Source of the DNA: Granulosicoccus antarcticus IMCC3135
GTDB lineage: Bacteria; Pseudomonadota; Gammaproteobacteria; Granulosicoccales; Granulosicoccaceae
Assembly: GCF_002215215.1 (NCBI RefSeq)
Contig: NZ_CP018632.1
Span: 7,436,501-7,500,500 of the forward strand
DNA length: 64,000 bases
Direction: 5' to 3'
The notes under the pieces were generated by a model. It saw only the letters and a list, made by a program, of their open reading frames with translations. It searched no databases and was not told where the DNA came from. Of the stretch, positions 38,444 through 51,431 are shown piece by piece (position 1 is the stretch's first letter; each line of letters begins with the position of its first letter). The position numbers and the translations under genes are program-made.

Positions 38444-39199
38444 ATGTCCAACATAGCAGGCAAAGCCTATGCGATGAACGTCATCACACCGATTCGCTCA
38501 AGATACAGCTTCATCAATCGCTGGTTATTTGGCAAGGCCACTAAAACCCCGGCAGCTCTACTTGGCCTGGTGACACTCTCCCTGATTCATTACGCACGCT
38601 GGGTCATCATTCCGCGCAACTCGTTTCCGCATCTGGATGCGAGTCAGCCAAAAGAGGAGCTGAACTACGATTACATGATCTTCCAGAGCAATTTCAATGG
38701 TAGCTGGGCTCAGTACGTCGACTCATTTACATTTGCCATACCAGCTGGTCTGGACCTGTTCTGGAAATGGAATGTCCGGTATCCCAAGTCAGTACCACTG
38801 ACCCCTTTCCATGACTATATACGGCACAACCAGATAGACACCTGCCACTACTACAGCGCCTACCCCATGGCTGCATCAAACGATGTGAAGTCTGCAAAAG
38901 TACTCAAGCAGGCTTTGTGTGATTTCGACAAGGCATCTGCCGGGAAGCCTGCCGATGAATTCCTCACCGACTATCACGCGCTACTCAACGCCATGCAGTT
39001 GCATCTTGGTGAGATGCGCCCGACGCCTGTCGTGAGTATGGCGGCACAAGCGGTCAAGGATCGCCACTCGGGCACCCCGGAAAAGGTTCAAGGCTTCAAG
39101 GGGGCAAACGATTCTGCAGAACCGGTAGAAAATAGCGCTTCATCCAGAACACCACCTGCGGCTCCGCTTTCTAGCACTGACGCACCGGAGTACAGCTAA
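38444..39199 (+). CDS. Unknown protein, paralogue of next gene (peroxidase/P450 operon)
   Basis: Protein of 251 residues with no family I can name. It shares a pattern with the product of the next gene: AMNVITPIRSRYS near the N-terminus, YDYMIFQSNFNGSWAQYVDSF near residue 80, DVKSAKVLKQAL near 150 and a DYHALLN helix near 185. There is one moderately hydrophobic stretch near 40-55, not a clear membrane segment. The C-terminal 45 residues look disordered. It is the first gene of a five-gene operon with a DyP-type peroxidase, a P450 and a GST-like protein, three bases before its paralogue. GAAGGGAAAA precedes ATG. Confidence 0.7.
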   Translation: MSNIAGKAYAMNVITPIRSRYSFINRWLFGKATKTPAALLGLVTLSLIHYARWVIIPRNSFPHLDASQPKEELNYDYMIFQSNFNGSWAQYVDSFTFAIPAGLDLFWKWNVRYPKSVPLTPFHDYIRHNQIDTCHYYSAYPMAASNDVKSAKVLKQALCDFDKASAGKPADEFLTDYHALLNAMQLHLGEMRPTPVVSMAAQAVKDRHSGTPEKVQGFKGANDSAEPVENSASSRTPPAAPLSSTDAPEYS

Positions 39200-39201
39200 T
39201 C

Positions 39202-39930
39202 ATGGCCAATACCGGCGGCGGCGCACAGGCGCTGACAATTCTGAGTCCCATCAAGAATGGCTACCTTGGTGAAACCACCTTCGCGGACGAAACCTTCAAG
39301 CGATGCATGAATATTCGCATCCACGAAGAAAGCCCTTTGGCCAAGATACCGGATACCTACCTTGCCCGGCTATATGTGCTTAACGATGTGCTTTACGAGT
39401 CCAAGCCTGCCAACGACACAATCCTCAACCTGAACGATTTGTTTTCGCTATTCAAAGGCAAGTATCGGCTGCGTGGACTCCCCAAGACAGACAAGCTGAA
39501 ATCACGTTATCTTGTTTTTTCCAGCAACTTTCACGGTGAAAGCGACGAGGATCTTGACCGTTATCTGAAAAATTTATACCTACACTGGGACTACACGGAC
39601 TACTACGGAAAGCGGCATGACATTCATCATATCTGGAGACACTGTGTCGCTTATGACAAGGTAAAAAGTGCAGATGATTTTGTCAGCTACATGCGTAAAT
39701 GCGCCCTTGATACATCATTATTCTTTAACGGGTCGAACGGCGATTCCCTGAAAGAGCAGCTCAAGGCCCTGTATCTCAAGCAGGAATTATCACGCTTTGC
39801 CATCAATCATCAAGGCAAAAGCGCAGGCGAGATACAGACAGCATGGCACGCTTTCATCGATCGGGTCAGACCAACAGATCTGGAAGCTCCAAGCTGGAAG
39901 CCCGGACAATCAACGGTACGAACATCATGA
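39202..39930 (+). CDS. Unknown protein, paralogue of preceding gene
   Basis: Protein of 242 residues, no family recognised. Segments ALTILSPIKNGYLGE, RYLVFSSNFHGESDEDLDRYL, DKVKSADDFVSYM and TAWHAFIDRVRPT align in order with the preceding gene product, so the two are diverged tandem paralogues. No signal peptide or membrane segment. The stop overlaps the ATG of the peroxidase gene (ATGA). A heterodimer with its neighbour, or a substrate-handling role for the oxidases, is possible but unproven. Confidence 0.7.
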   Translation: MANTGGGAQALTILSPIKNGYLGETTFADETFKRCMNIRIHEESPLAKIPDTYLARLYVLNDVLYESKPANDTILNLNDLFSLFKGKYRLRGLPKTDKLKSRYLVFSSNFHGESDEDLDRYLKNLYLHWDYTDYYGKRHDIHHIWRHCVAYDKVKSADDFVSYMRKCALDTSLFFNGSNGDSLKEQLKALYLKQELSRFAINHQGKSAGEIQTAWHAFIDRVRPTDLEAPSWKPGQSTVRTS

Positions 39931-41471
39931 CTAGCAGCGTAATGGAAAGACAAGCCAAGGTCGCTGGAAAGACCTTGAACCTTTCAGACATTCAGGGCAA
40001 CGTCGTGCGCGCCTACGGCCATATAGGCTACTTTCATGCACGCTACCTGTTCTTCCGCATTAATGATCCGGGCAATGCGCGTGCGTTTCTGACACGAGTG
40101 GCCGAACGTGTCACCAACTCGGCTTACGCGGATTCGAAACGGAACACCCGGCAAACAACATCCAAAGCCAGCACAAACGTTGCCTTCACGTTTGCAGGAT
40201 TGCAGGCAATCGAATTACCCGCCGGCTCATTGATGGGTTTTCCGCAGGAATTTGCTGCCGGCATGAAAAAACGCATGAGTATACTCGGCGATGAAGGTTC
40301 GAGTGCACCGGAACACTGGGACAATATCTGGCAAAAGGAAGTCCATCTGTGGGTCTCGATCAATGGTCTTAGCAATGCGGATGTAGAGGAACGCTACCAG
40401 TGGATCCTGCGGCAGAACAAGGATAGCGGCGATGGTGTCGAGCTGCTATCGGGTCATCGAGGGGCTGCGGGAGAGGAGGACCTGATGTTTCAGACAGGTG
40501 CCATCTTGCGAGATGAGAACGGCAATCCCTCTGGCAAGGAACACTTCGGTTATCGTGACGGCATCAGTGATCCGGTCTTCGAAGGTCAGCCAAACGCCCC
40601 TGACACCGTGCTGGGACGCGGCAAATTGCTGGCCGGTGACAAGTGGGCACCTCTGGCCCCCGGCGAGTTTCTCTTGGGACACCTGGACGAAGCACAGGAG
40701 TACCCCAAGGCACCGATGCCCCGGTCTCTGGCGCAAAACGGCACGTTCATGGTCTATCGTAAATTACACCAGAATGTCGCCACGTTCAGGCGTTATCTGG
40801 ACGATTCAGCCGCTCAGTTCGAGGGTAGTAAAGAGATGCTGGCTGCCAAGTTCTGCGGACGCTGGCGCGACAATGGCGCACCGATCGTCGATGCGCCGGA
40901 CGATGCCGGTAAAAAGTGCTGGGATGCCCGATTCGAAGCGGCTGATGCGGCTGAAAAGCGACGCATGCTGACCGACTTTCACTACAACGACGACATTGAC
41001 GGAGCACGCTGTCCCATGAGTGGGCATCTACGCCGCATGAATCCTCGGGGCTCTCTGGAATTCGGCCAGAAAGGCGCATTCAACACACCCAGCGCGCTTG
41101 CCGATCGCCGCCGCATTTTGCGCCGTGGGCTTCCCTATGGTCAATCAGGCCCGGATACTAACGATGCCGATGATCACGGCATTATCTTCATGGCCCTCAA
41201 CGCCTCCATTGAAAGACAGTTCGAGTTCGTGCAACAGCAGTGGGTCAACTACGGCAATGACTTCAAGGAGGGCAACGACAAAGAGATACTGCTTGGCAAT
41301 CACACCGGTGAAGGAAAAGCGGTACTGCAAGTTGAGCCAGGCAGTGGCAAGCCACCCCATTTTCTTACCAAGCTGCCGCGTTTCGTTGAGTGCCGCGGTG
41401 GAGACTATTTCTTCGTTCCCGGCATCACAGCACTGAAGATGATCGCGGCTGGAATTGTGGATCCAACCTGA
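39927..41471 (+). CDS. DyP-type heme peroxidase family protein
   Basis: Protein of 514 residues, longer than most DyP peroxidases (about 300-450). It starts at the ATG that overlaps the previous stop. Seen: LSDIQGNVVRAYGHIGYFHARYLFF near the N-terminus, the DyP motif GYRDGISDP (GxxDG, with the catalytic aspartate) near residue 200, and the proximal heme histidine in GHLRRMNPR near 370. The family oxidises dyes, phenols or lipids with hydrogen peroxide. The context, upstream of a P450 and a GST-like gene, points to a dedicated oxidation pathway. There is no export signal. Confidence 0.87.
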   Translation: MTSSVMERQAKVAGKTLNLSDIQGNVVRAYGHIGYFHARYLFFRINDPGNARAFLTRVAERVTNSAYADSKRNTRQTTSKASTNVAFTFAGLQAIELPAGSLMGFPQEFAAGMKKRMSILGDEGSSAPEHWDNIWQKEVHLWVSINGLSNADVEERYQWILRQNKDSGDGVELLSGHRGAAGEEDLMFQTGAILRDENGNPSGKEHFGYRDGISDPVFEGQPNAPDTVLGRGKLLAGDKWAPLAPGEFLLGHLDEAQEYPKAPMPRSLAQNGTFMVYRKLHQNVATFRRYLDDSAAQFEGSKEMLAAKFCGRWRDNGAPIVDAPDDAGKKCWDARFEAADAAEKRRMLTDFHYNDDIDGARCPMSGHLRRMNPRGSLEFGQKGAFNTPSALADRRRILRRGLPYGQSGPDTNDADDHGIIFMALNASIERQFEFVQQQWVNYGNDFKEGNDKEILLGNHTGEGKAVLQVEPGSGKPPHFLTKLPRFVECRGGDYFFVPGITALKMIAAGIVDPT

Positions 41472-41530
41472 GACGAACAAGCTTCCATCACAGCGTCGCA
41501 CAGTTTGTATAGCTCAACCAAGAGAACGCA

Positions 41531-42787
41531 ATGTCAGACACAACGGTACGCATCAAAACCTGGATCTTCCAGAATCTTGATTTGGCATGCAGCATCATGC
41601 GCCGGGTGAGGCCGAATTTTGTGGTGGATGGCCAGGCATTCATTACCCGCTTTGACGGGGTCAATGAGGTGTTGTCACGGGACGATGTCTTCCATGTGAC
41701 CTATGCGCAAAAGATGGAAAAGGTCACCAGTGGCGGCAACTTCTTTCTAGGCATGCAGGACACCCCAACGTACACTCGCGACGTCTCACACATGCGGCTC
41801 ACTGCAAGGCGAACCGACATTGATGAGAGAATTCTACCCTTTGTCAACGCAAGCTGTGCGCAGATACTCTCGACCCTGGACGGCGAATGTGATGTGGTCA
41901 AGGCACTGACACGCGTGGTACCTACCCGCTTTATCGGTGACTACTTTGGTACCCCCGGTTGGAATCAGGAGGAATTTACAGATGCAGCCTCTCTGATGTT
42001 TGCCTACCTTTTTTACCCCAGCAACGAGGCCAGTGAAAATACAGCGCTGGCCGCAGCTCGCACCACATGTGATTACCTTGATCAGACTATTCAAGAAAGA
42101 AAGTCTCATCGAGACGAGCATGATGACGTACTCGAACGCTGCCTGGTACTGCAAGACAGTGGGCACCCGGGGATGAGCGATAGGGATATTCGCAACAATC
42201 TGATCGGTCTGCTGATCGGCGCTATCCCCACGACGTCCAAGTGTGTTGCCTTGACGCTGGACTACCTGTTCGAACACCCGGACCTGCTGGCCGAAGCACA
42301 ACAGGCAGCACGCGCCGACAACGACAAGCTCATGCTGCAATACGTCAGGGAATGTCTTCGCCTGAACGCTTTCGCTGCCGGCGTACAACGTATCTGCTCG
42401 CGGGATTACATCGTTAACGAAGGTTCGTGGTACGCCGCTCGAATACCAAAAGACACTGTAGTACTGGTTGCCACTCAATCGGCAATGATGGACAGCCGCA
42501 AGGTTGCCAAGCCCAATGAATTCAGGCTGGATCGCCCTGATTACCTGTATATGCACTACGGCGTTGGCATGCACACCTGCTTCGGAGCACACATCAATGA
42601 TGCACAGGTTCCCGCGATCTTGAAATCCGTGCTCAAACTTGAAGGCTTGAGACGCGTTGCACCGATGCAGAGCGCAGGGCCCTTTCCGGTTAGTTTGAAG
42701 ATTGCGTTCGACAGCCGTAATACTCCACCATCGAATCCGCATAAAACTGTGCACAAGCCTATCCATGAAAAAGAGGAAGTAGCGTGA
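41531..42787 (+). CDS. Cytochrome P450 with atypical I-helix
   Basis: P450 of 418 residues, no membrane anchor. The heme-ligand loop is HYGVGMHTCFG (Cys near residue 355), and the ExxR motif is YVRECLR near 275. The I-helix reads LLIGAIPTTSKC, where usual monooxygenases have (A/G)Gx(D/E)T: the acid position is a proline. That change is known in P450s that use peroxides or rearrange hydroperoxides. With a DyP-type peroxidase just upstream, the enzyme may act on a peroxide rather than on oxygen. No ferredoxin or reductase gene is nearby, which fits. Confidence 0.87.
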   Translation: MSDTTVRIKTWIFQNLDLACSIMRRVRPNFVVDGQAFITRFDGVNEVLSRDDVFHVTYAQKMEKVTSGGNFFLGMQDTPTYTRDVSHMRLTARRTDIDERILPFVNASCAQILSTLDGECDVVKALTRVVPTRFIGDYFGTPGWNQEEFTDAASLMFAYLFYPSNEASENTALAAARTTCDYLDQTIQERKSHRDEHDDVLERCLVLQDSGHPGMSDRDIRNNLIGLLIGAIPTTSKCVALTLDYLFEHPDLLAEAQQAARADNDKLMLQYVRECLRLNAFAAGVQRICSRDYIVNEGSWYAARIPKDTVVLVATQSAMMDSRKVAKPNEFRLDRPDYLYMHYGVGMHTCFGAHINDAQVPAILKSVLKLEGLRRVAPMQSAGPFPVSLKIAFDSRNTPPSNPHKTVHKPIHEKEEVA

Positions 42788-43650
42788 ATCACACGGAAGC
42801 AGCTCCAACGATTCCCCGGGTAATCACCTTCCCACCCAGCGCCGACAGTGAAACCGGACGCTGGGCACTGGATTATTACGACATCAAAGTGGATGAACGT
42901 CGCCATGCGCCACCCTTCATTTTTGCAGCCATCGGTTTGAACAAAGGCAAGAAATTTCCTTTGTTTATGCACGACGAATTAATGCTGAATGGTGTCGAGC
43001 AAATTCTTGATCATTTCAATGAAAGAGCACTGGATAACCGGCAATTGACTCCCGATGAACACCGAGATGAAATCGAAGCGCACTGGAAACGCTTCAACGC
43101 CACCATGGGTGCAGCCGTCGTCACCTGGGCGTACACACATTTGCTACCGCATCGCTCCATCATGATTCGTCCTCTGAGCCTTGGCTCCCCCTGGTACCAG
43201 CAACAGTTTGTGCGATTTCTCTACCCGATTCCCAAGACCATGCTCTGGAACGCGCTCAAGCTTAGCCGCCCGAAAGCAGACGAAGCGCTAAAGACAATCG
43301 AGGCAACGTTTGCTTACGTGGACGAGCTCCTGGCTGACAACCGCCGCTGGCTGGTTGGAGATCGCATGACCCTTGCCGACTTGTCGTTTGCGGTCAGTGG
43401 CGCGCCTCTGGTGCTGCCGGAAGGCTACGGTGGTTATCCAGGCGATCAAGGCCCCATCCCCTCTCTAGAACAGTGGCCCGCCGAGCAGCGTGCAATAATC
43501 AAGGCGATGCGGCAAACGCGTGCCGGCCAGTTCATTCTGAGAATGTACAAAGAGGAGCGGTACCGGCATTTGAATTTGTCGACAGGTGCACCAGTCGTTC
43601 AACATTCAACTTCAACAAAAGATGAACGGGTAATTGATATTGTTGAGTGA
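42784..43650 (+). CDS. Glutathione S-transferase-like protein
   Basis: Protein of 288 residues. The C-terminal half matches the GST all-helical domain: RWLVGDRMTLADLSFAVSGAPLVLPEGYGG contains the N-capping and hydrophobic staple pattern. The N-terminal half should be a thioredoxin-like domain but is divergent, and no clear catalytic Ser, Tyr or Cys stands out. The start is a GTG overlapping the P450 stop by four bases, so translation is coupled. It could conjugate or isomerise the product of the P450. It is the last gene of the operon. Confidence 0.75.
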   Translation: MNHTEAAPTIPRVITFPPSADSETGRWALDYYDIKVDERRHAPPFIFAAIGLNKGKKFPLFMHDELMLNGVEQILDHFNERALDNRQLTPDEHRDEIEAHWKRFNATMGAAVVTWAYTHLLPHRSIMIRPLSLGSPWYQQQFVRFLYPIPKTMLWNALKLSRPKADEALKTIEATFAYVDELLADNRRWLVGDRMTLADLSFAVSGAPLVLPEGYGGYPGDQGPIPSLEQWPAEQRAIIKAMRQTRAGQFILRMYKEERYRHLNLSTGAPVVQHSTSTKDERVIDIVE

Positions 43651-43723: not shown

Positions 43724-44872
43724 TCACTTTAAATTCTGCAGTGTACGGTTAATACTCTCTTCCACTTGCCTGGCGCCCTTGGCAATAGCTTCCTCTTGTT
43801 TCTGATCCTCTGCCTGCTGCGCATGGTGCTGTTCGATAAATTCAGCCACCATGCTCTCAGTGACCAGGTCATTCTGACTGCTGCGCTCAGAAGTCCCGAT
43901 CTGGATGATATTGGTTTTTGAATCAGGATTCTCGAAATGACTGATGGACCTGATGGGTATCCGCTTTTCCAGCATGCCGTACACAATTTCATTAACGATT
44001 GCCGCAGGCACCCCCTTCCCGAACCAGATCGCGTTTGTTTCATTCTCGAGATCGCTGACGTTCACAACAGATTCAACCTTCGTTGAATCAAGAACATCGA
44101 CAATGGCATTCCCATCAGCGCTTTTGCGATAATAGATCACCAGAGGCGGACTGGGACTGCCATATGCACCAGTCGTTGATAACGTCATACCTGAATCGGC
44201 GGCGAACGCACTACCGATTACAGACGACCCAAGCATGTCGAGGAAACTGGATTCCTGGGAGGCGTTCTGGAGACCCTCTTCGATGAATTCAAATTGCACG
44301 GGAGCGGAGAAGTCACCATCCTCTCCGGAACCGGAATTTGACTGTGCGACTTCTTTCAGGTTGTAGATACCCAACGCCTTACCATTGAAAGGGACATCAA
44401 GTAGTCCGATGTTCTGCTTGAATCCCGTGTCGTTCCCCTCACCATCCTTGACCGGAGTCAATAGATGAACTGCGAAATGGTGAGAAGGCTTTAGCTTGAC
44501 ATCACTGAGAATGGCCATCTGAACCCAAGACCCCGTTATGGAGGTCGAGATGTTATCCCGATACATTCGCGGTGCAGTCAGCGGTAGGTGGATTTCAGAA
44601 TTTTGGGGCAGATTGGTCAGCGTAATCCGGTAGGGGTAGATTTTCTCGGTACTTTGCGTGTTGATGAAACTGAAGGTTGCCAACCCCATGAATACAATTC
44701 CGGACACAGCATAAAAGATCCCCATGTGCTTACTGTCTTTCTTGAGCATCACGAAAAGCGACACGATTACCAGAAAAACACCGAAGAAAAATGGACCGTT
44801 CGTCGAAGCCAACCCAGTCAGCTCGGGCAGCTTTTCCACCAACGTCTCTAGGACTCCGCCTTCGTCAGCCAT
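43724..44872 (-). CDS. Unknown membrane-anchored protein
   Basis: Protein of 382 residues that I do not recognise. Two membrane segments lie near 28-42 and 50-67, followed by a large soluble part, probably periplasmic and beta-rich, and a charged coiled-coil tail near 335-382. A short hydrophobic stretch (SSVIGSAFAADSG) occurs near 215. It is a single gene on the minus strand between the peroxidase operon (convergent) and a small membrane protein gene (divergent). No function can be assigned. Confidence 0.65.
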   Translation of the reverse strand: MADEGGVLETLVEKLPELTGLASTNGPFFFGVFLVIVSLFVMLKKDSKHMGIFYAVSGIVFMGLATFSFINTQSTEKIYPYRITLTNLPQNSEIHLPLTAPRMYRDNISTSITGSWVQMAILSDVKLKPSHHFAVHLLTPVKDGEGNDTGFKQNIGLLDVPFNGKALGIYNLKEVAQSNSGSGEDGDFSAPVQFEFIEEGLQNASQESSFLDMLGSSVIGSAFAADSGMTLSTTGAYGSPSPPLVIYYRKSADGNAIVDVLDSTKVESVVNVSDLENETNAIWFGKGVPAAIVNEIVYGMLEKRIPIRSISHFENPDSKTNIIQIGTSERSSQNDLVTESMVAEFIEQHHAQQAEDQKQEEAIAKGARQVEESINRTLQNLK

Positions 44873-45759: not shown

Positions 45760-46998
45760 TCAGGCTATTGCCCAAATCGCTTCAGCGGGTTCCTGTTTCA
45801 CTGGGGCCGCCTGAATGACATGCTCTCGTAATTCAGGTCTGACATCCCCTCCACAGGCCAACACGGCGTGTCCCGCCGCTTCTATATTTTTTGCTGCATT
45901 GGTATCAGCGTTGTCCGAATACCCACAGCTCTGGCAGCAGAAACCTGTCTGGCTCTGTCGGTTTTCCTTCGCTATGTGCCCACAGCAAGAGCATTGCTGA
46001 CTCGTGTACTGAGCCGGGACGACAACCAGCTCTCCTCCTGCCCAACCAAGCTTGTAGCCTAACTGACGTCGGAATTCGCCCCACCCCTGGTCCAGAATGG
46101 CACGGTTGAGACCGGACTTGGCCTTCACGTTCTTGCCCGGCAATGCCTGACTACCCGACGCCGAACGAGACATATTGGCCACTTTCAGATCTTCGATACA
46201 CACGACTGCGTGGTTATTGCTGATGGTGTGTGTCTTCTTGTGCAAATAGTCGGCTCGGGCATTGGCAATACGTCGGTATAGTCGGGCAACCCTGTCTTTC
46301 TGCTTTCTCCAGTTGTTGGAAAATTTCTTTTTACGCGCCAGTGAGCGTTGCTCCCGGGCAAGCTTTCTTTGATACGTTGCAAAGCTGTTGAGCGGCAGAT
46401 GATTCTCTCCGTCACTCTGTGCAGCGAATACCTTGATGCCCATATCAATACCCACCAAACTCGTGGAGGGGTGTTGTGACGCCTCCACCTCGCGTACTGT
46501 CTGCACAGAAAAAAACCACTTGCCACAACGCTCACTGATCGTGATATTGCGTAACGTACCCAGCACCTTTCGACTGTTGCGGTAGCGAATCCAGCCTAGT
46601 TTGGGCAGAAACACACGATTGTTGGCTTGATCCAGTTTGAATTGTTTGGGTTCAGGGTATCGAAAACTATCGCCGTCGCCTTTTTTCTTGAACCGGGGAA
46701 ATCCTGCCCGCCCGGCAAAGAAATTCTGAAACGCACGATCAAGATCCCGCAGTGACTGCTGTAACGGGTGGGCCGGCGCATTCTTGAGCCAGCAGGTGCC
46801 TTCTTCCTTTCGCCACTTCGGCAGGCAATTGGCCATGGGCACATAGCCTATATACTTCAATCCTGCCTTGTGGTTCTCCTGCTGCAAACCCAGTGCCCTG
46901 TTATAGACAAATCGACAACTACCGGCAAACTGTCGCAACTTACCCAGTTGTTCGCCGTTGGTACGTAGTTCGAATTTGTAGGCTTGAAGGCGTTCCAT
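45760..46998 (-). CDS. tnpB: TnpB, RNA-guided nuclease of an IS605-type element
   Basis: Protein of 412 residues, a full-length TnpB. N-terminal helix-turn-helix region (RLQAYKFELRTNGEQLGKLRQFAGSCRFVYN), a RuvC-like nuclease with its three acids (LVGIDMGIKVFA, CIEDLKV, SDNADTNAAKNI), and the zinc finger CSCCGH...CQSCGY between the last two. TnpB proteins cut DNA guided by an RNA that reads through the IS right end, favouring retention of the element. All key residues are present, so it is probably active. It starts one base from the first in-frame ATG of the divergent tnpA. Confidence 0.93.
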   Translation of the reverse strand: MERLQAYKFELRTNGEQLGKLRQFAGSCRFVYNRALGLQQENHKAGLKYIGYVPMANCLPKWRKEEGTCWLKNAPAHPLQQSLRDLDRAFQNFFAGRAGFPRFKKKGDGDSFRYPEPKQFKLDQANNRVFLPKLGWIRYRNSRKVLGTLRNITISERCGKWFFSVQTVREVEASQHPSTSLVGIDMGIKVFAAQSDGENHLPLNSFATYQRKLAREQRSLARKKKFSNNWRKQKDRVARLYRRIANARADYLHKKTHTISNNHAVVCIEDLKVANMSRSASGSQALPGKNVKAKSGLNRAILDQGWGEFRRQLGYKLGWAGGELVVVPAQYTSQQCSCCGHIAKENRQSQTGFCCQSCGYSDNADTNAAKNIEAAGHAVLACGGDVRPELREHVIQAAPVKQEPAEAIWAIA

Positions 46999-47020
46999 GC
47001 ATTTATTATACTATTGGCCT

Positions 47021-47437
47021 ATGAGCAAAGATACGACTATTCGCACAGGAAGACACTGTGTATTTATTATGCATGTCCACTTGGTCTTCGTCACAAAGTA
47101 TCGTCGTGATGTCTTCACCAAGAAAATTCTCGATGACTTGAAGATCACCTTCACCAAGGTATGTGAAGACTTTGAAGCCACTCTGGTGGAGTTTAATGGT
47201 GAAGACGATCATGTCCATCTTCTGGTTAACTACCCACCCAAGGTGCCAGTATCTGGCCTGGTCAACAGTCTGAAGGGGGTATCTAGTCGCCGAGTAAGAA
47301 AAGCAGATTATCCGAGCATCAAAAACAAACTGTGGGGTAATGCACTATGGTCTCCTTCGTACTTTGCCAGCAGTTGTGGTGGAGCTCCGATTGGCCTGAT
47401 CAGACAATACATCGAACAGCAACGAACACCGCGCTAA
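47021..47437 (+). CDS. tnpA: TnpA, IS200/IS605-family Y1 transposase
   Basis: Protein of 138 residues with the HUH motif (DHVHLLV) and the catalytic tyrosine in LIRQYIEQQ, as usual for single-strand Y1 transposases. ATG 47021 (MSKDTTIRTG) is the usual family start; an in-frame ATG at 46997 also exists. Its 3' end lies 28 bases from the group II intron. The intron inserted between the left IS hairpin and tnpA and did not break the gene, so transposase activity is plausible, although its left end is now 4.8 kb away. Confidence 0.92.
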   Translation: MSKDTTIRTGRHCVFIMHVHLVFVTKYRRDVFTKKILDDLKITFTKVCEDFEATLVEFNGEDDHVHLLVNYPPKVPVSGLVNSLKGVSSRRVRKADYPSIKNKLWGNALWSPSYFASSCGGAPIGLIRQYIEQQRTPR

Positions 47438-47548: not shown

Positions 47549-48553
47549 TCATGAGAGACGAGGTACATCTAAGCCATCGTAGTATTTGACTGATAGAATA
47601 AAGTGCAATCCCGAAAGGCTGTTGTGCCAACAACGTTTGCTAGAACAAGCGATGAGCTTAGCCAACTCCTGCGAGGCACCGAGACGACGTAAAGCGTCAT
47701 ACGCCGTACGGCCGCGTCGCCAGTGCTTGAGCTGGATAGCCCGCAATCGGCGTCGTATCCAGCCATCCAGATCACGGAAGATTTTCGGCGTTTGTGCCAG
47801 ATGAAAGTAAGCCTTCCATCCGGGAATGAAACTCCGAAGTTCTACCGCAACTTGGACAAGGCTGCGACCACCGACGCGACGTGTGATCTGCCGGATGCGC
47901 TGCTTGAACTTGACGATTGCCGAAGGTGATACCGCAATTTTAACCGTGTTCCCACTCCACCGCCGTAAGCAGTAGCCCAGAAACTTACGACCAAACACGG
48001 GCCCGACTGCAGTCTTTGCCTCGTTCACCCGAAGGTGCAGTTTTGCATACAGCTTCCGAAGAGAGCGCAGTACCCGTTCCCCCGCCCGTTGACTACGAAC
48101 ATACACATTGCAGTCATCGGCGTATCGGGCAAACTTGTGTCCGCGCCTCTCCAGAGCCTGATCCACTTCGTCCAACAGCACATTAGCCAGTAACGGTGAA
48201 AGAGGGGAGCCTTGTACGGTTCCCTCCAAGCGTTCCACCAATACGCCGTTGATCATGACGCCAGCTCGAAGAAATCGTCGAATCAACCGAAGAACGGCCT
48301 TATCGTCGATTCGCTTACTCAGCCGGTCCATGAGAACGTCGTGATTAACCCTGTCGAAAAATTTCTCAAGATCCACATCAACCACCACCTGATAGCCTTG
48401 TTGCACACACTGCTGTGCATGGAGCACAGCATCATGGGCACTTCGACCTGGGCGAAAGCCGTAGCTGAACTTTGAGAACGTCGGGTCAAGCAGGGGTTGC
48501 AGTACTTGCAACAGTGCCTGCTGGATCAGGCGATCAATGACGGTGGGGACCGT
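47549..48553 (-). pseudogene. ltrA: C-terminal part of group II intron reverse transcriptase/maturase
   Basis: About 330 residues: from PTVIDRLIQQALLQVLQP through the RT catalytic YADD box (RYADDCNVY), the maturase X domain (RSFIPGWKAYFHLAQTP, WIRRRLRAIQLKHWRRG) and a short end with no HNH endonuclease. Its N-terminal part (RT blocks 0-2) lies at 51462-51843 and ends in ELGIPTV, exactly where this part begins. The gene was split by the serine-recombinase element, so the intron can no longer make its own maturase. Confidence 0.88.
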
Positions 48554-48583
48554 GGTTTCATAATGCACCTCGTGCAGTTGGCG

Positions 48584-50647
48584 TTAGGGATTGACCGGGG
48601 TATCTATTCGGGTTGAGTTTCTCACCCAGTCTTCGAGCTCCTTTTCTTTGCTTCGTGTGAGCGTGATCCAGTAAGGCGTTCCGTGTTCAAGTTGTCGAGC
48701 CTCAACAACATCGCACTCTATCCAGTAGTAGACGACGTTGCGGCTGATACCGAAGCGTACCATTACCTCGTTGACGGTTAGCTCATTAGATCGTTTTAGA
48801 TCAGCGCAGGGAATCCGATGTCGGTAACGAACCCACGAGATCATGGGTGCCGTGAACTTCTTGCCTTTTGGGCTTCGCAGTCCTTGTGCATTGAGTTCAG
48901 CGACAATGTCTTTGTCCCTCATCGTGCAGGCTAACGCTCTGATTTTTTCAACCATCTCGGCTGGATAACGTAGCTGCTCAGCGATAGGCGCTGGCAGCTG
49001 CACGACGATGTCATTCGTCGCACCACCTTGCCAACGTACGTGCAGAATCGCTTGGCGCTCTTCCCGTCGTTTTTCGACGGTGATGTCCTTAATCAAAAGC
49101 CTCAACATACGCTTTTTATCTTTAGACGAGGTTGTTTTCGCATTCCATAAACGCGGCAGATCCTTTGCTAAGGCCAACACCATCTGGCGCTGTTCATCAC
49201 TGACAATGCACGCCTCTTTTGAGTGGAACTGCGCGTACTGTTCTTCGAGTTTTTGCAACTCCTCCAGTGCATTGTTCCAGCGCTGCTCTAGCGTCGATGC
49301 AACCAGACGGTTCGACGGGTCCACTTCCTCGTAACGCCGTTGTGCCAGCTGTGCTTCATAGCCAGCACGTTCGATTCTTCGCTGCCATTGTTGCCCCACC
49401 GACTGGTCGCGCTCTTGCAGTTGACGCACCGATTCCACAGCCAGTTCCACTTGTGCAGGAATCATCGCTGCCAACACCGCTTCACAGACCACCGGGTCCA
49501 GAACGTTTGCCTGAACAAACATACAAGACTTTGTTGCAACACCTTCTCGTCGGCGCCAGTTGCATTCATAGAGCGGATAGATGCCGCCGTTGCCTTTGTA
49601 GCGAACGGTGAGTTTACGGCCGCAACAACCACACAGTAGCAAGCCCTGCAGCATAGCCAGGCCTTCTCGTGCCGCACCGCTCAACAATGTCTGCTCACTG
49701 TTGGTTCGATTCCTATCCAATCGCTCTCGATTCTGCAGGTATTCATCCCAGCTAACATAGCCCTCATGATGATCGCGTAAATTGACGCGCCATGACTCCA
49801 TGGGTACTTCGCAGGACCGGGTTTGAATCTCACCATTGGCATCAACCTGCTTTTTGGACTGATAGCGTCCGTATACGTAGGCACCAGCATAAGTGGGGTT
49901 CGATAGAATTGATAGGACGCGAGACTCACACAGCGGCCCCCAGATCAGCTTGCCGTCCCATGCGCCGCCGTATGAACGCTTGGGGAATTTTAACCCCTTG
50001 TCACCAAAACGATGGACCACGCCATAGGCAGTACCAACCTCGTTGAACAACGAGAACACCATGTGTACCGCGCCTCGCACCTCATCATCTGGGTCGAGTA
50101 CCGTTCGATCCTGATCGTCAAAGCACAAACCCACCGGCAACGGAAACCTCAACTCACCCTTTCTGGCCTTGTTCAGTTTGCCACCCTGGAGGCGCGCGCG
50201 CAGAAAATGCAATTCTGCCTGTGCCAACGTTCCCTTCATCCCCAGTAACAACGCATCGTTGAAATCTCCCGGGTCGTAGCAACCGTCTTCGTCGATAACC
50301 GCCGTCTGCGTCATTGCACACAGTTCGATCAATCGATGCCACTCCAGACTTGAGCGGGCCAACCGCGACGCCTCCAGAGCGAACACCGCTCCCACGTCCC
50401 CCATTGACACATCCGCCACCAGTCGTTTGAAATCGTTGCGACCTGTGGTCTGTGCTCCCGACACACCCAGATCCCCGTCCAGTGTCACTATCTGTTCTGT
50501 CGTCCAACCCATTCCAATCGCTTTGTCGCGCAGAGCATACTGGCGCTCCGTGCTCTCCTGATGCCATCTCACTTGGCCCATCGTCGATTGACGCACGTAC
50601 ACGTACGCCTGTCGCTGAAGATGCTGTTCTGTCAACTTCGTGCTCAT
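48584..50647 (-). CDS. Large serine recombinase
   Basis: Protein of 687 residues. The N-terminal resolvase-type catalytic domain starts with YVYVRQST (nucleophile Ser near residue 21), with STERQYALRDKA, SRLARSSLEWHRL and the arginine-rich active-site region. A recombinase domain follows near 180-290 (NPTYAGAYVYGRYQSKK), a zinc ribbon near 335-375 (CGCCGRKL...CNWRR), a long coiled coil near 400-470, and a C-terminal helix-turn-helix region. GAGGAG lies seven bases before ATG. It is intact and should catalyse integration and excision of the surrounding element. Confidence 0.92.
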   Translation of the reverse strand: MSTKLTEQHLQRQAYVYVRQSTMGQVRWHQESTERQYALRDKAIGMGWTTEQIVTLDGDLGVSGAQTTGRNDFKRLVADVSMGDVGAVFALEASRLARSSLEWHRLIELCAMTQTAVIDEDGCYDPGDFNDALLLGMKGTLAQAELHFLRARLQGGKLNKARKGELRFPLPVGLCFDDQDRTVLDPDDEVRGAVHMVFSLFNEVGTAYGVVHRFGDKGLKFPKRSYGGAWDGKLIWGPLCESRVLSILSNPTYAGAYVYGRYQSKKQVDANGEIQTRSCEVPMESWRVNLRDHHEGYVSWDEYLQNRERLDRNRTNSEQTLLSGAAREGLAMLQGLLLCGCCGRKLTVRYKGNGGIYPLYECNWRRREGVATKSCMFVQANVLDPVVCEAVLAAMIPAQVELAVESVRQLQERDQSVGQQWQRRIERAGYEAQLAQRRYEEVDPSNRLVASTLEQRWNNALEELQKLEEQYAQFHSKEACIVSDEQRQMVLALAKDLPRLWNAKTTSSKDKKRMLRLLIKDITVEKRREERQAILHVRWQGGATNDIVVQLPAPIAEQLRYPAEMVEKIRALACTMRDKDIVAELNAQGLRSPKGKKFTAPMISWVRYRHRIPCADLKRSNELTVNEVMVRFGISRNVVYYWIECDVVEARQLEHGTPYWITLTRSKEKELEDWVRNSTRIDTPVNP

Positions 50648-50786
50648 CGGTACACTCCTCCACAGGGCGGCAGGAATCGATGGGCTCGCGCAACCAGGCC
50701 TCTAGCATGTTGGCCATCAGTGTTGCGGCGGCAGTGGTATCGAAGGTGGCGGTGAGCGTGGTAGATGAGGCACTCACCGCCAGCAC

Positions 50787-51119
50787 CTAAAACCGTTCCC
50801 GACGGCGCAACAACTCCTGATTGATCGCGCACAATTGATCGAGCCTGTCGCGGATCTCGCGATAGTTGGCAAGATACTCGGCCACTTGCGGCTGAGTGTC
50901 TTGTGGGACGTAATCCATGGCGGGGCGTGCCCCCGTGCGGCTGATCGACAAGTAGTACTTCGGGCCGTGTCCCTGGCCAGTAGCGCACTTGCAGTTTGGT
51001 TTGCCGCAACGTTTGTAGCGTTCGATCAGCGAGCCACGTAGAACAGTATCCAACGGTGGGATTTTGCGTAACAGTTGCTTGCGCCGGCGCCTGAGTTGAG
51101 TGGTCGAAATATCCTGCAT
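50787..51119 (-). CDS. DUF6788-like small protein of the recombinase element
   Basis: Protein of 110 residues with a basic N-terminus and a conserved core: LIERYKRCGKPNCKCATGQGHGPKYYLSISR, which carries three cysteines of a possible metal site and resembles DUF6788 proteins found next to serine recombinases and transposases. The C-terminal 40 residues form a helix. The function is unknown. It lies between the DUF5372-like gene and the recombinase gene, all in one direction. Confidence 0.72.
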   Translation of the reverse strand: MQDISTTQLRRRRKQLLRKIPPLDTVLRGSLIERYKRCGKPNCKCATGQGHGPKYYLSISRTGARPAMDYVPQDTQPQVAEYLANYREIRDRLDQLCAINQELLRRRERF

Positions 51120-51167
51120 AGTTGTCGGACCACGTATATGACTGCCCAGATAATAGTCTACATGAAA

Positions 51168-51431
51168 TCATTCGTCAACTCCGTCGGACTCGGTCAGTTG
51201 ACGTACCAGCGTGGCAAGAGTCAGCAGCGAATCAAACTCCAGGATCACACCCGGTGAGGCTAATTCGCTTAGCGGCTCCCAGTCTGTCCACTCTTGCGCA
51301 ACGGCCAGAGTGCCGCGCTCAGGGTGACGAATAATCAACGTCTCCACGCCCGATACGCGACGGCGCTTCAGGACATCAAAACGTTGCTGGGTCAATGGAT
51401 GGAAGGGATGAGTTACCGTGACACATCCCAA
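51168..51431 (-). CDS. DUF5372-like small protein of the recombinase element
   Basis: Protein of about 87 residues from a TTG at 51431. It begins LGCVTVTHPFHPLTQQRF, a DUF5372-like start, and continues with TLIIRHPERGTLAVAQEWTDW. The open frame runs further upstream into the maturase remnant, but the element border is near 51462, so the native start must lie inside the element; TTG 51431 is the best candidate. The function is unknown. Confidence 0.6.
   Translation of the reverse strand: MGCVTVTHPFHPLTQQRFDVLKRRRVSGVETLIIRHPERGTLAVAQEWTDWEPLSELASPGVILEFDSLLTLATLVRQLTESDGVDE

Follow-up and report, generated by a model that had tools for sequence, protein, structure and literature searches.

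The 64,000-nucleotide stretch of the Granulosicoccus antarcticus IMCC3135 genome analyzed here (hereafter the window; the host genome is one contig of 7,783,862 bases) carries a plus-strand operon of five genes at positions 38444-43650. The operon encodes two related proteins, here named U1 and U2, a DyP-type haem peroxidase, a cytochrome P450 and a protein resembling glutathione S-transferases (GST). In the related loci surveyed, U1, U2 and DyP form a constant core, which is often accompanied by a P450 or a catalase-related protein (CatR) but never by both. We tentatively interpret the operon as a membrane-associated, two-step lipid-oxidation module of the oxylipin type, a reading held with slightly less than even confidence. 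All five open reading frames (ORFs) were confirmed:

38444..39199, plus strand: U1, 251 aa, TPIR/SNFNG protein; no Pfam family above cut-off; equivalent to Ub in the fusion proteins described below
39202..39930, plus strand: U2, 242 aa, SPIK/SNFHG protein, paralogue of U1; predicted ferredoxin-like or dimeric alpha+beta barrel-like fold
39927..41471, plus strand: DyP-type haem peroxidase, 514 aa; PF21105 and PF20628; Asp211, His367 and Arg396/Arg399 present
41531..42787, plus strand: cytochrome P450, 418 aa; haem-loop Cys and ExxR present; Pro233 in the place of the I-helix acid
42784..43650, plus strand: GST-like protein, 288 aa, accessory; GST_C match

An initial annotation, made from the sequence without database searches, had described five plus-strand genes separated by gaps or overlaps of a few bases, except for 59 bases before the P450, and the ORF coordinates confirm this spacing. 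U1 and U2 are separated by a 2-base gap, U2 and DyP share a 4-base ATGA overlap, a 59-base gap lies between DyP and P450, and P450 and GST share a 4-base GTGA overlap. For DyP, a start at 39927 suits the overlap with U2 better than the longest-ORF start at 39843. The same annotation had named a long DyP, a P450 and a GST-like protein, all of which are recognized by Pfam (DyP_N 1.1e-13, Dyp_perox_C 3.8e-5, P450 2e-17 and GST_C 1.9e-6). Its description of the first two products as related proteins of no recognized family also holds, since U1 and U2 share 23% identity over 236 columns (BLASTP E 2e-9 in a single comparison) and neither reaches the cut-off of any Pfam or NCBIfam family.

Conservation of the locus was assessed in two sets. 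A U1-profile scan of the genome collection gave 469 pattern matches, 450 of which encode a relative; counts out of 80 refer to the best 80 of these. The second set consists of 397 evenly drawn Pseudomonadota genomes, for which at least 90% completeness was requested. The U domain occurs in 25 of these genomes, representing 19 of 232 genera, and one locus per U-positive genome except the window's own (24 loci) was read with profiles built for this analysis. Among the neighbours of these 24 loci 165 ORFs were listed, and 20 chosen ones were named singly by Pfam. U2 was found at all 80 best relatives, and the order U1-U2-DyP was observed at 77 of them, the remaining three being cut by contig ends. 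In the even sample, DyP adjoins or is fused to U at 24 of 24 loci (at L140 about 0.9 kb separates the two). These frequencies rule out chance gene order, and U1-U2-DyP is the core of the module. U1 and U2 constitute two undescribed protein families that are constant partners of DyP here.

The view of the locus as one operon is supported in the sense of a functional unit, in contrast to the fixed set of five genes that had been proposed. A P450 is present at 13 of the 24 sampled loci and 25 of the 80 close relatives, GST is clear at one of 24 and present at 15 of 80, and the five-gene set is found in full in Nitrosomonas and in a small number of further genomes. It had also been stated that the proposal would fail if the U proteins occurred mostly without these enzymes; this is rejected for DyP, while the outcome is split for P450, which CatR often replaces.

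Gene fusions provide strong evidence that the U, DyP and P450 or CatR proteins function together, as they occur in several arrangements. P450-Ua-Ub-DyP is encoded as one polypeptide at nine loci (L003-L005, L117-L121 and L124), six of which (L117-L121 and L124) belong to the 24 sampled loci. On plasmids of Novosphingobium, Sulfitobacter and Pararhizobium, the P450, two U-type domains and DyP form a single chain of 1,423-1,620 residues. Rhizobium leguminosarum encodes a U-U-DyP fusion without P450 (L006), Skermanella has U-U, DyP and P450 as separate genes (L007), and at L127 DyP is fused to CatR. One gene family lies 5' of all nine P450 fusions (9/9 in tblastn, 26-100% identity); its three members scanned with Pfam (L117, L121 and L124) contain TPR repeats, and the L117 member also a nucleotide-cyclase domain. 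Searches of open-access papers, judged by listings and the openings of abstracts, turned up no account of a DyP-P450 module, and the retrieved portion of an octadecanoid review (PMC11719350) makes no mention of one.

CatR is a protein of about 337 aa found near DyP in 26 of the 80 relatives. Its Pfam Catalase match is modest (3.9e-7), and among PDB sequences its profile matches 3e4w best (1.6e-8), which we take to be the allene oxide synthase (AOS)-like protein of Mycobacterium avium; true catalases match at 8e-4 or weaker. The proximal Tyr is present in 64 of 65 and the distal His in 54 of 60 readable sequences. On these sequence features CatR is classified as a catalase-related AOS-like protein.

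P450 and CatR were never seen together at the U-DyP loci surveyed. The best 80 relatives include 25 with P450, 26 with CatR and none with both; at the 24 sampled loci the corresponding numbers are 13, seven and none, with four loci having neither. If the loci are treated as independent, which they are not, the naive probability of zero overlap is 4.6e-6 for the 80 and 0.00095 for the 24. The sampled P450 and CatR genes are fused to the core or lie at most 110 bases away, except at L127, where a further CatR copy stands about 3 kb off. A quick DyP tree was built for 107 loci, excluding matches under 200 bits or spanning at most 350 residues and labelling loci as 'none' even if a contig end could hide a partner. 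P450 and CatR occur together at none of these 107 loci, and their states need at least eight changes on the tree, or seven among the 68 loci flanked by 3 kb on either side. Within one methanotroph clade (98% support), P450 is found at L025, L027 and L031 and CatR at L028. The deeper changes are less sure, as the distant tree rows comprise many long branches. The window genome has no CatR match at E <= 1e-20.

A second exchange involves U-DyP itself. The P450 subfamily (E <= 1e-60) was detected in 13 of the 397 genomes, 11 times at U-DyP loci and twice near a gene for a RoxA-like di-haem protein, at distances of about 0.1 kb (L174) and 1.3 kb (L175). CatR (E <= 1e-20) was detected in 46 of the 397 genomes; among 30 CatR loci listed, 22 adjoin a RoxA-like gene, three adjoin DyP, and five have neither within 1.5 kb. 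The 22 RoxA-CatR loci are not independent because many come from one family (f26); in the seven with longer flanks (L199-L205) the pair stands side by side in every case. The RoxA-like assignment is based on PF21419, found in all four proteins scanned (1.7e-19 to 2.1e-16), and on PDB entry 4b2n (7.6e-7). All four combinations of U-U-DyP or RoxA-like protein with P450 or CatR occur. At L135, U-DyP adjoins a RoxA-like gene (in two pieces, close to a contig end), and at L127 (4682-12887) an animal haem peroxidase, CatR, a U protein and the DyP-CatR fusion are adjacent in a divergent arrangement. The window genome has no match to PF21419, the family sought as the mark of a FadCcp/OdsAB-type system. 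According to the retrieved part of PMC4496055, the 10S-dioxygenase PA2077 and the 7,10-diol synthase PA2078 of Pseudomonas aeruginosa group with RoxA. Their oleate pathway, as given in the part of PMC5155153 available to us, consists of dioxygenation to 10S-HPOME followed by isomerization to a diol.

Genes of lipid metabolism adjoin some of these loci. In Vibrio penaeicida (L083 and L085) the order is P450-U1-U2-DyP-patatin-FadL. Oleate hydratase adjoins U-DyP-CatR at L137 (MCRA 4.5e-196) and occurs with RoxA-P450 in Bradyrhizobium (L008, at about 3 kb) and at L174. Patatin is found near RoxA-P450 (L009) and RoxA-CatR (L200 and L205), and a Tle1-like phospholipase near P450-U1-U2-DyP (L130) and RoxA-CatR (L202).

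Taken together, the two-by-two exchange and the lipid genes at a minority of loci suggest that U-DyP makes or presents a lipid hydroperoxide for P450 or CatR to rearrange. In the first step of the proposed mechanism, U1 and U2, probably non-haem barrel-type partners, would tether an unsaturated acyl substrate or offer it to DyP, and this haem protein would form or hold the lipid hydroperoxide. U-DyP would then fill the place of a lipoxygenase (LOX), an animal haem dioxygenase or a RoxA-like 10S-dioxygenase. In the second step, the P450 would rearrange or cleave the hydroperoxide without external electrons, in the manner of CYP74-type or PpoA-type P450s; in other bacteria the catalase-related AOS-like protein would replace it, and the GST-like protein, if present, may act on the reactive product. 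The initial annotation had likewise suggested that a peroxide is made, rearranged in an oxylipin-like route and then conjugated. The first two parts fit the P450/CatR and U-DyP/RoxA exchanges, while conjugation by GST is at most accessory. The oxylipin idea has partial support; a defence metabolite, the other example given there, would be a conjectural product. In a bolder form of the proposal, U-DyP would be a novel kind of fatty-acid dioxygenase, consisting of a DyP fold and two barrel-type partners, that passes its hydroperoxide within a membrane complex, in some bacteria a single chain of about 1,400-1,600 residues, to a P450 or a catalase-related isomerase. Oxygenases (U-DyP, RoxA-like and perhaps animal-type haem peroxidases) and isomerases (P450 and CatR) would then be exchangeable oxylipin cassettes. 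We regard this bolder form as possible but doubtful.

In the window DyP both the N- and the C-terminal DyP domains score above their Pfam cut-offs (PF21105, 52.1 bits against 27.5; PF20628, 23.9 bits against 20), and the score for TIGR01413 is slightly below the cut-off (95.8 against 100.5 bits). D211 is invariant in 108 of 108, H367 in 107 of 107, and R396 and R399 in 105 of 105 readable sequences; presumably these are the catalytic Asp of the GxxDG motif, the proximal His and the distal Arg, respectively. Given this invariance, DyP should bind haem and react with peroxide. Its PDB relatives include 8re3 (a putative peroxidase, presumably from Dictyostelium), 7anv (an ancestral D-type DyP) and 5c2i (Alr1585). 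The natural substrates of DyP peroxidases are largely unknown.

The P450 residues C350, E274 and R277, representing the haem-loop Cys and the ExxR motif, are invariant in 17 sequences. In standard P450s the I helix carries an acid-alcohol pair, the acid of which normally serves proton relay. The acid place was read in DyP-linked P450 matches of at least 45 bits, two rows being unreadable there. Among 40 readable sequences it is occupied by Pro in 38, by Ala in one (L129) and by Asp in one (L079). With Pro233 in this place, the window P450 lacks the acid-alcohol pair of standard monooxygenases. The L084 sequence, which has a stop in its tblastn range, was excluded from the P450 alignment and its I helix read from the open frame; L054 was omitted from one alignment. 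The statement of the initial annotation that electron-transfer genes are missing agrees with the Pfam results for the scanned neighbours. No ferredoxin or flavodoxin family was matched among 78 small ORFs (50-200 aa, within 5 kb) at 17 P450 loci and the window, in a scan that an ORF overlapped by a longer frame could escape and that does not extend to more distant ferredoxins. A linked ferredoxin serving the P450 is unsupported by this result. The Pro in the acid place and the absence of ferredoxins among the scanned ORFs favour a peroxide- or hydroperoxide-dependent chemistry of the P450, as far as sequence can indicate.

When the window U1 is aligned with 45 chosen homologues (46 sequences), 60 columns are invariant. 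For folding, the alignments drew on 45 U1 and 45 U2 homologues, out of 76 and 74 full-length ones, respectively. The window U1 contains a hydrophobic segment at residues 38-56 (mean hydropathy 1.72). Hydrophobic segments also precede Ub in the U-U-DyP protein of Rhizobium, the U-U protein of Skermanella and all three plasmid fusions. No segment above the threshold was found in U1 of Granulicella or in U2 of either the window or Granulicella. The AlphaFold model of U2 reached a mean pLDDT (predicted local distance difference test) of 82.2. The first 16 rows of its VIA-align comparison are mostly dimeric alpha+beta barrel or ferredoxin-like structures, with Z scores of 5.0-7.1 and root-mean-square deviations of 3.3-4.2 over 93-119 residues. 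Both DyP and chlorite dismutase are members of the dimeric alpha+beta barrel superfamily.

Several observations weigh against the proposed lipid-oxidation module. We know of no DyP that acts as a fatty-acid dioxygenase, and ordinary DyPs use H2O2. The U1 model is poor and unusable (pLDDT 52.6), and the Z scores of the U2 model fall in a range that is common for models without true relatives. Foldseek found no match to the U2 model under E 0.001, and comparison of the U1 and U2 profiles with PDB sequences gave only noise. Because of the first two results for U2, its model-based assignment to the ferredoxin-like or dimeric alpha+beta barrel fold is likely and no more than that. Among the 80 relatives 29 have neither P450 nor CatR; 12 of these loci are cut within 3 kb, while the other 17 are not. 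An independent-pairs test of P450 against CatR gave no same and about 3.5 opposite pairs, which is the right direction, but it is underpowered and non-significant (median p of 0.25 for all rows, 0.125 for complete loci and up to 0.5).

The exclusion, moreover, holds per locus and not per genome. One genome (G208) combines a RoxA-P450 locus with a CatR elsewhere, and another (G372) has U-DyP without adjacent P450 or CatR on one contig (L140, C1) and a RoxA-CatR pair on another (L204, C2). None of the 14 genomes with U-DyP-P450 (13 and the window's) has a CatR match, a result that is non-significant given the overall CatR frequency of 46 in 397. The RoxA-linked P450s of the same subfamily retain Glu in the acid place (4/4, of which three are distinct, L008 and L174 apparently being the same protein), so the P450 mechanism may differ between DyP and RoxA contexts. 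A presumably exported RoxA-like protein beside a P450 without a predicted membrane segment also makes an awkward pair. Finally, most loci have no lipid gene and the lipid hints are confined to a minority: tblastn searches of 144 loci gave three oleate hydratases (two apparently one protein), five patatins, two FadL and two Tle1-like proteins.

At 23 further CatR loci (L176-L198) neither DyP nor a RoxA-like gene was found in 15-20 kb, and no recurrent theme appeared among 84 ORFs in the first 25 of 66 neighbour families; this survey used 84 of the 91 neighbour ORFs under 1,300 aa. As no recurrent neighbour was seen there, only part of the CatR family is tied to lipid oxygenases. CatR is fused to or located near a LodA-type oxidase, an H2O2 producer, at L180 and L177; the fusion is a 1,035-aa ORF at L180 (7855-10959) with a catalase-related and a LodA domain, the LodA match being read in the overlapping L169. 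U-DyP-CatR has GMC oxidoreductases as close neighbours at L126 and L128. These associations fit H2O2 handling, and the CatR-LodA fusion suggests that some CatRs act on H2O2 produced in place.

Detoxification and H2O2-driven peroxygenation are the main rivals of the lipid-oxidation module. In the former, which we consider fairly unlikely, the membrane-bound DyP together with P450 or CatR would destroy lipids peroxidized under stress, no biosynthesis would be involved, and GST would clear aldehydes. The haem and thiol enzymes of the module are all able to act on peroxides, and the membrane-like segments, the GST-like protein and the mutual substitution of CatR and P450 are all consistent with this role, as are, in Granulicella, a Fur-type regulator and katG some 4 kb away from the triad. 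However, the place of U-DyP can be held by RoxA-like proteins, whose characterized relatives include product-making dioxygenases, and oleate hydratase and FadL beside a few loci suggest a dedicated fatty-acid metabolism.

In the latter, an oxidase would supply H2O2, DyP and the acid-less P450 would use it to hydroxylate or couple another substrate, and CatR would act as a safety valve for H2O2. Pro in the acid place suits peroxide-shunt P450s, the lack of ferredoxin in the scanned ORFs agrees with it, and the GMC oxidoreductases and the CatR-LodA protein favour such chemistry for at least some CatRs. For the module in general it is unlikely: a scavenger and a user of H2O2 differ in their jobs, so that the either-or of P450 and CatR would be unexpected, and Pfam names no oxidase among the scanned neighbours in the window. 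Tailoring of secondary metabolites, in which DyP and P450 would decorate an unrelated small molecule such as a peptide or terpenoid with its scaffold genes elsewhere, is very unlikely: the PDB relatives of the P450 (best 60 of 375 matches) do include P450nor (CYP55A1), CYP260A1, CYP107A1 and pentalenolactone synthase, and a decarboxylase dependent on pyridoxal phosphate (PLP) occurs in six P450-type loci, but the neighbours that were named include no recurrent scaffold-making gene and the module occurs in very different genomic contexts, with lipid hints at some loci.

The GST-like gene is an optional addition to the module. In the window GST-like protein GST_C scores above its cut-off (28.5 bits) and GST_N_3 below (19 bits against 22). 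The one clear GST in the even sample is at L125, a 24-bit match at L132 was not confirmed by Pfam, and all 15 GST-containing relatives also have P450. These low frequencies rule out GST as a core part, and conjugation is an accessory step at most. After GST, a permuted papain-like protein (PF05708, C92; Pfam on L016 only) is found at L010, L016, L018-L021, L071 and L125; folds related to PF05708 include lipid acyltransferases. The PLP-dependent decarboxylase family lies at most 2 kb upstream of U1 at L018, L020, L021 and L125, and about 9 kb off at L027 and L031. Three of the 17 uncut relatives that have neither P450 nor CatR (L022, L023 and L066) carry, next to U1-U2-DyP, a member of a protein family of about 278 aa that matches nothing in Pfam.

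Among 57 genomes of the same genus, family or class, U2 matches at E <= 0.001 were found in the window's own genome only, which suggests that the U-DyP operon is an accessory acquisition there. A LuxR-type regulator is located 5' of the operon, and on the same side a binding-protein ABC transporter and a class III aminotransferase (Pfam) are encoded on the opposite strand; none of these is counted in the module. Scans of the window for promoters and terminators gave no clear excess over shuffled sequences (4 vs 3.8 and 7 vs 5.7, respectively). On the 3' side, a minus-strand ORF at 43724-44872 encodes a 382-aa protein with no Pfam family above cut-off. It is followed at 45760-47434 by a minus-strand TnpB-type protein (OrfB_IS605 with a Cas12f1-like TNB domain) and the plus-strand ORF 46997-47434, which is probably the single Y1_Tnp (IS200-type transposase) match among the 78 small ORFs; the two look like an IS200/IS605 element. 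A mobile region at 47549-51171, also near the 3' side of the operon, encodes a group II intron-type reverse transcriptase/maturase, a large serine recombinase with a zinc ribbon and a 175-aa ORF without Pfam match.

If the proposed lipid-oxidation module is real, DyP peroxidases would gain a concrete role in one clade, and oxylipin-type chemistry would extend to nitrifiers, methanotrophs, soil bacteria and rhizobia, where to our knowledge none has been reported. The alternation between P450 and catalase-related enzymes seen in plants and corals would then reappear repeatedly in bacteria. Thanks to the fusion proteins, expression of a single gene would allow a direct test of the idea.

Known systems provide the general logic, and the module differs from each of them. 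Fungal linoleate diol synthases of the PpoA type are fusions of a haem dioxygenase and a P450. The nine P450-U-U-DyP fusions resemble them in joining a haem oxygenase or peroxidase and a P450 in one chain, whereas DyP does not have the animal haem peroxidase fold, U domains and membrane segments are added, and the domain order is reversed. Pfam gives only DyP domains for the window peroxidase, and PF03098 was seen only in a neighbour at L127. The likeness to CYP74 lies in the proposed electron-free hydroperoxide chemistry and in an I helix without the O2-activating acid. A haem loop with an insertion is the mark of the CYP74 clan, whereas the window P450 has the ordinary loop YGVGMHTCFG and its best 60 of 375 PDB matches are other P450s, which leaves its assignment to CYP74 or CYP152 unsupported.

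The P. aeruginosa FadCcps PA2077 and PA2078 share with the window operon the proposed logic of an oxygenase and a hydroperoxide-converting enzyme in one operon, and elsewhere their RoxA-like relatives are neighbours of members of these P450 and CatR families. They differ in that both are c-type di-haem proteins, as stated in the part of PMC4496055 seen, whereas the window has U1-U2-DyP and P450. In the accessible part of PMC5617202, AOS and hydroperoxide lyases (HPL) are described as plant P450s (CYP74) and coral catalase-related proteins, an unrelated pair that converts fatty-acid hydroperoxides, and in the coral AOS and HPL the catalase-related haem protein is fused to the oxygenase (LOX) that supplies the hydroperoxide. 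The coral AOS-LOX and HPL-LOX fusions have their likeness in window relatives where CatR adjoins DyP or is fused to it (L127), with the difference that the partner is DyP with U rather than a lipoxygenase and that the window itself carries a P450. The bacterial loci repeat the plant and coral either-or around both U-DyP and RoxA-like proteins. This is most simply read as U-DyP supplying or holding a lipid hydroperoxide, which P450 or CatR would convert. The module would then represent a known logic, an oxygenase coupled to a hydroperoxide-converting haem enzyme, apparently assembled from partly undescribed families.

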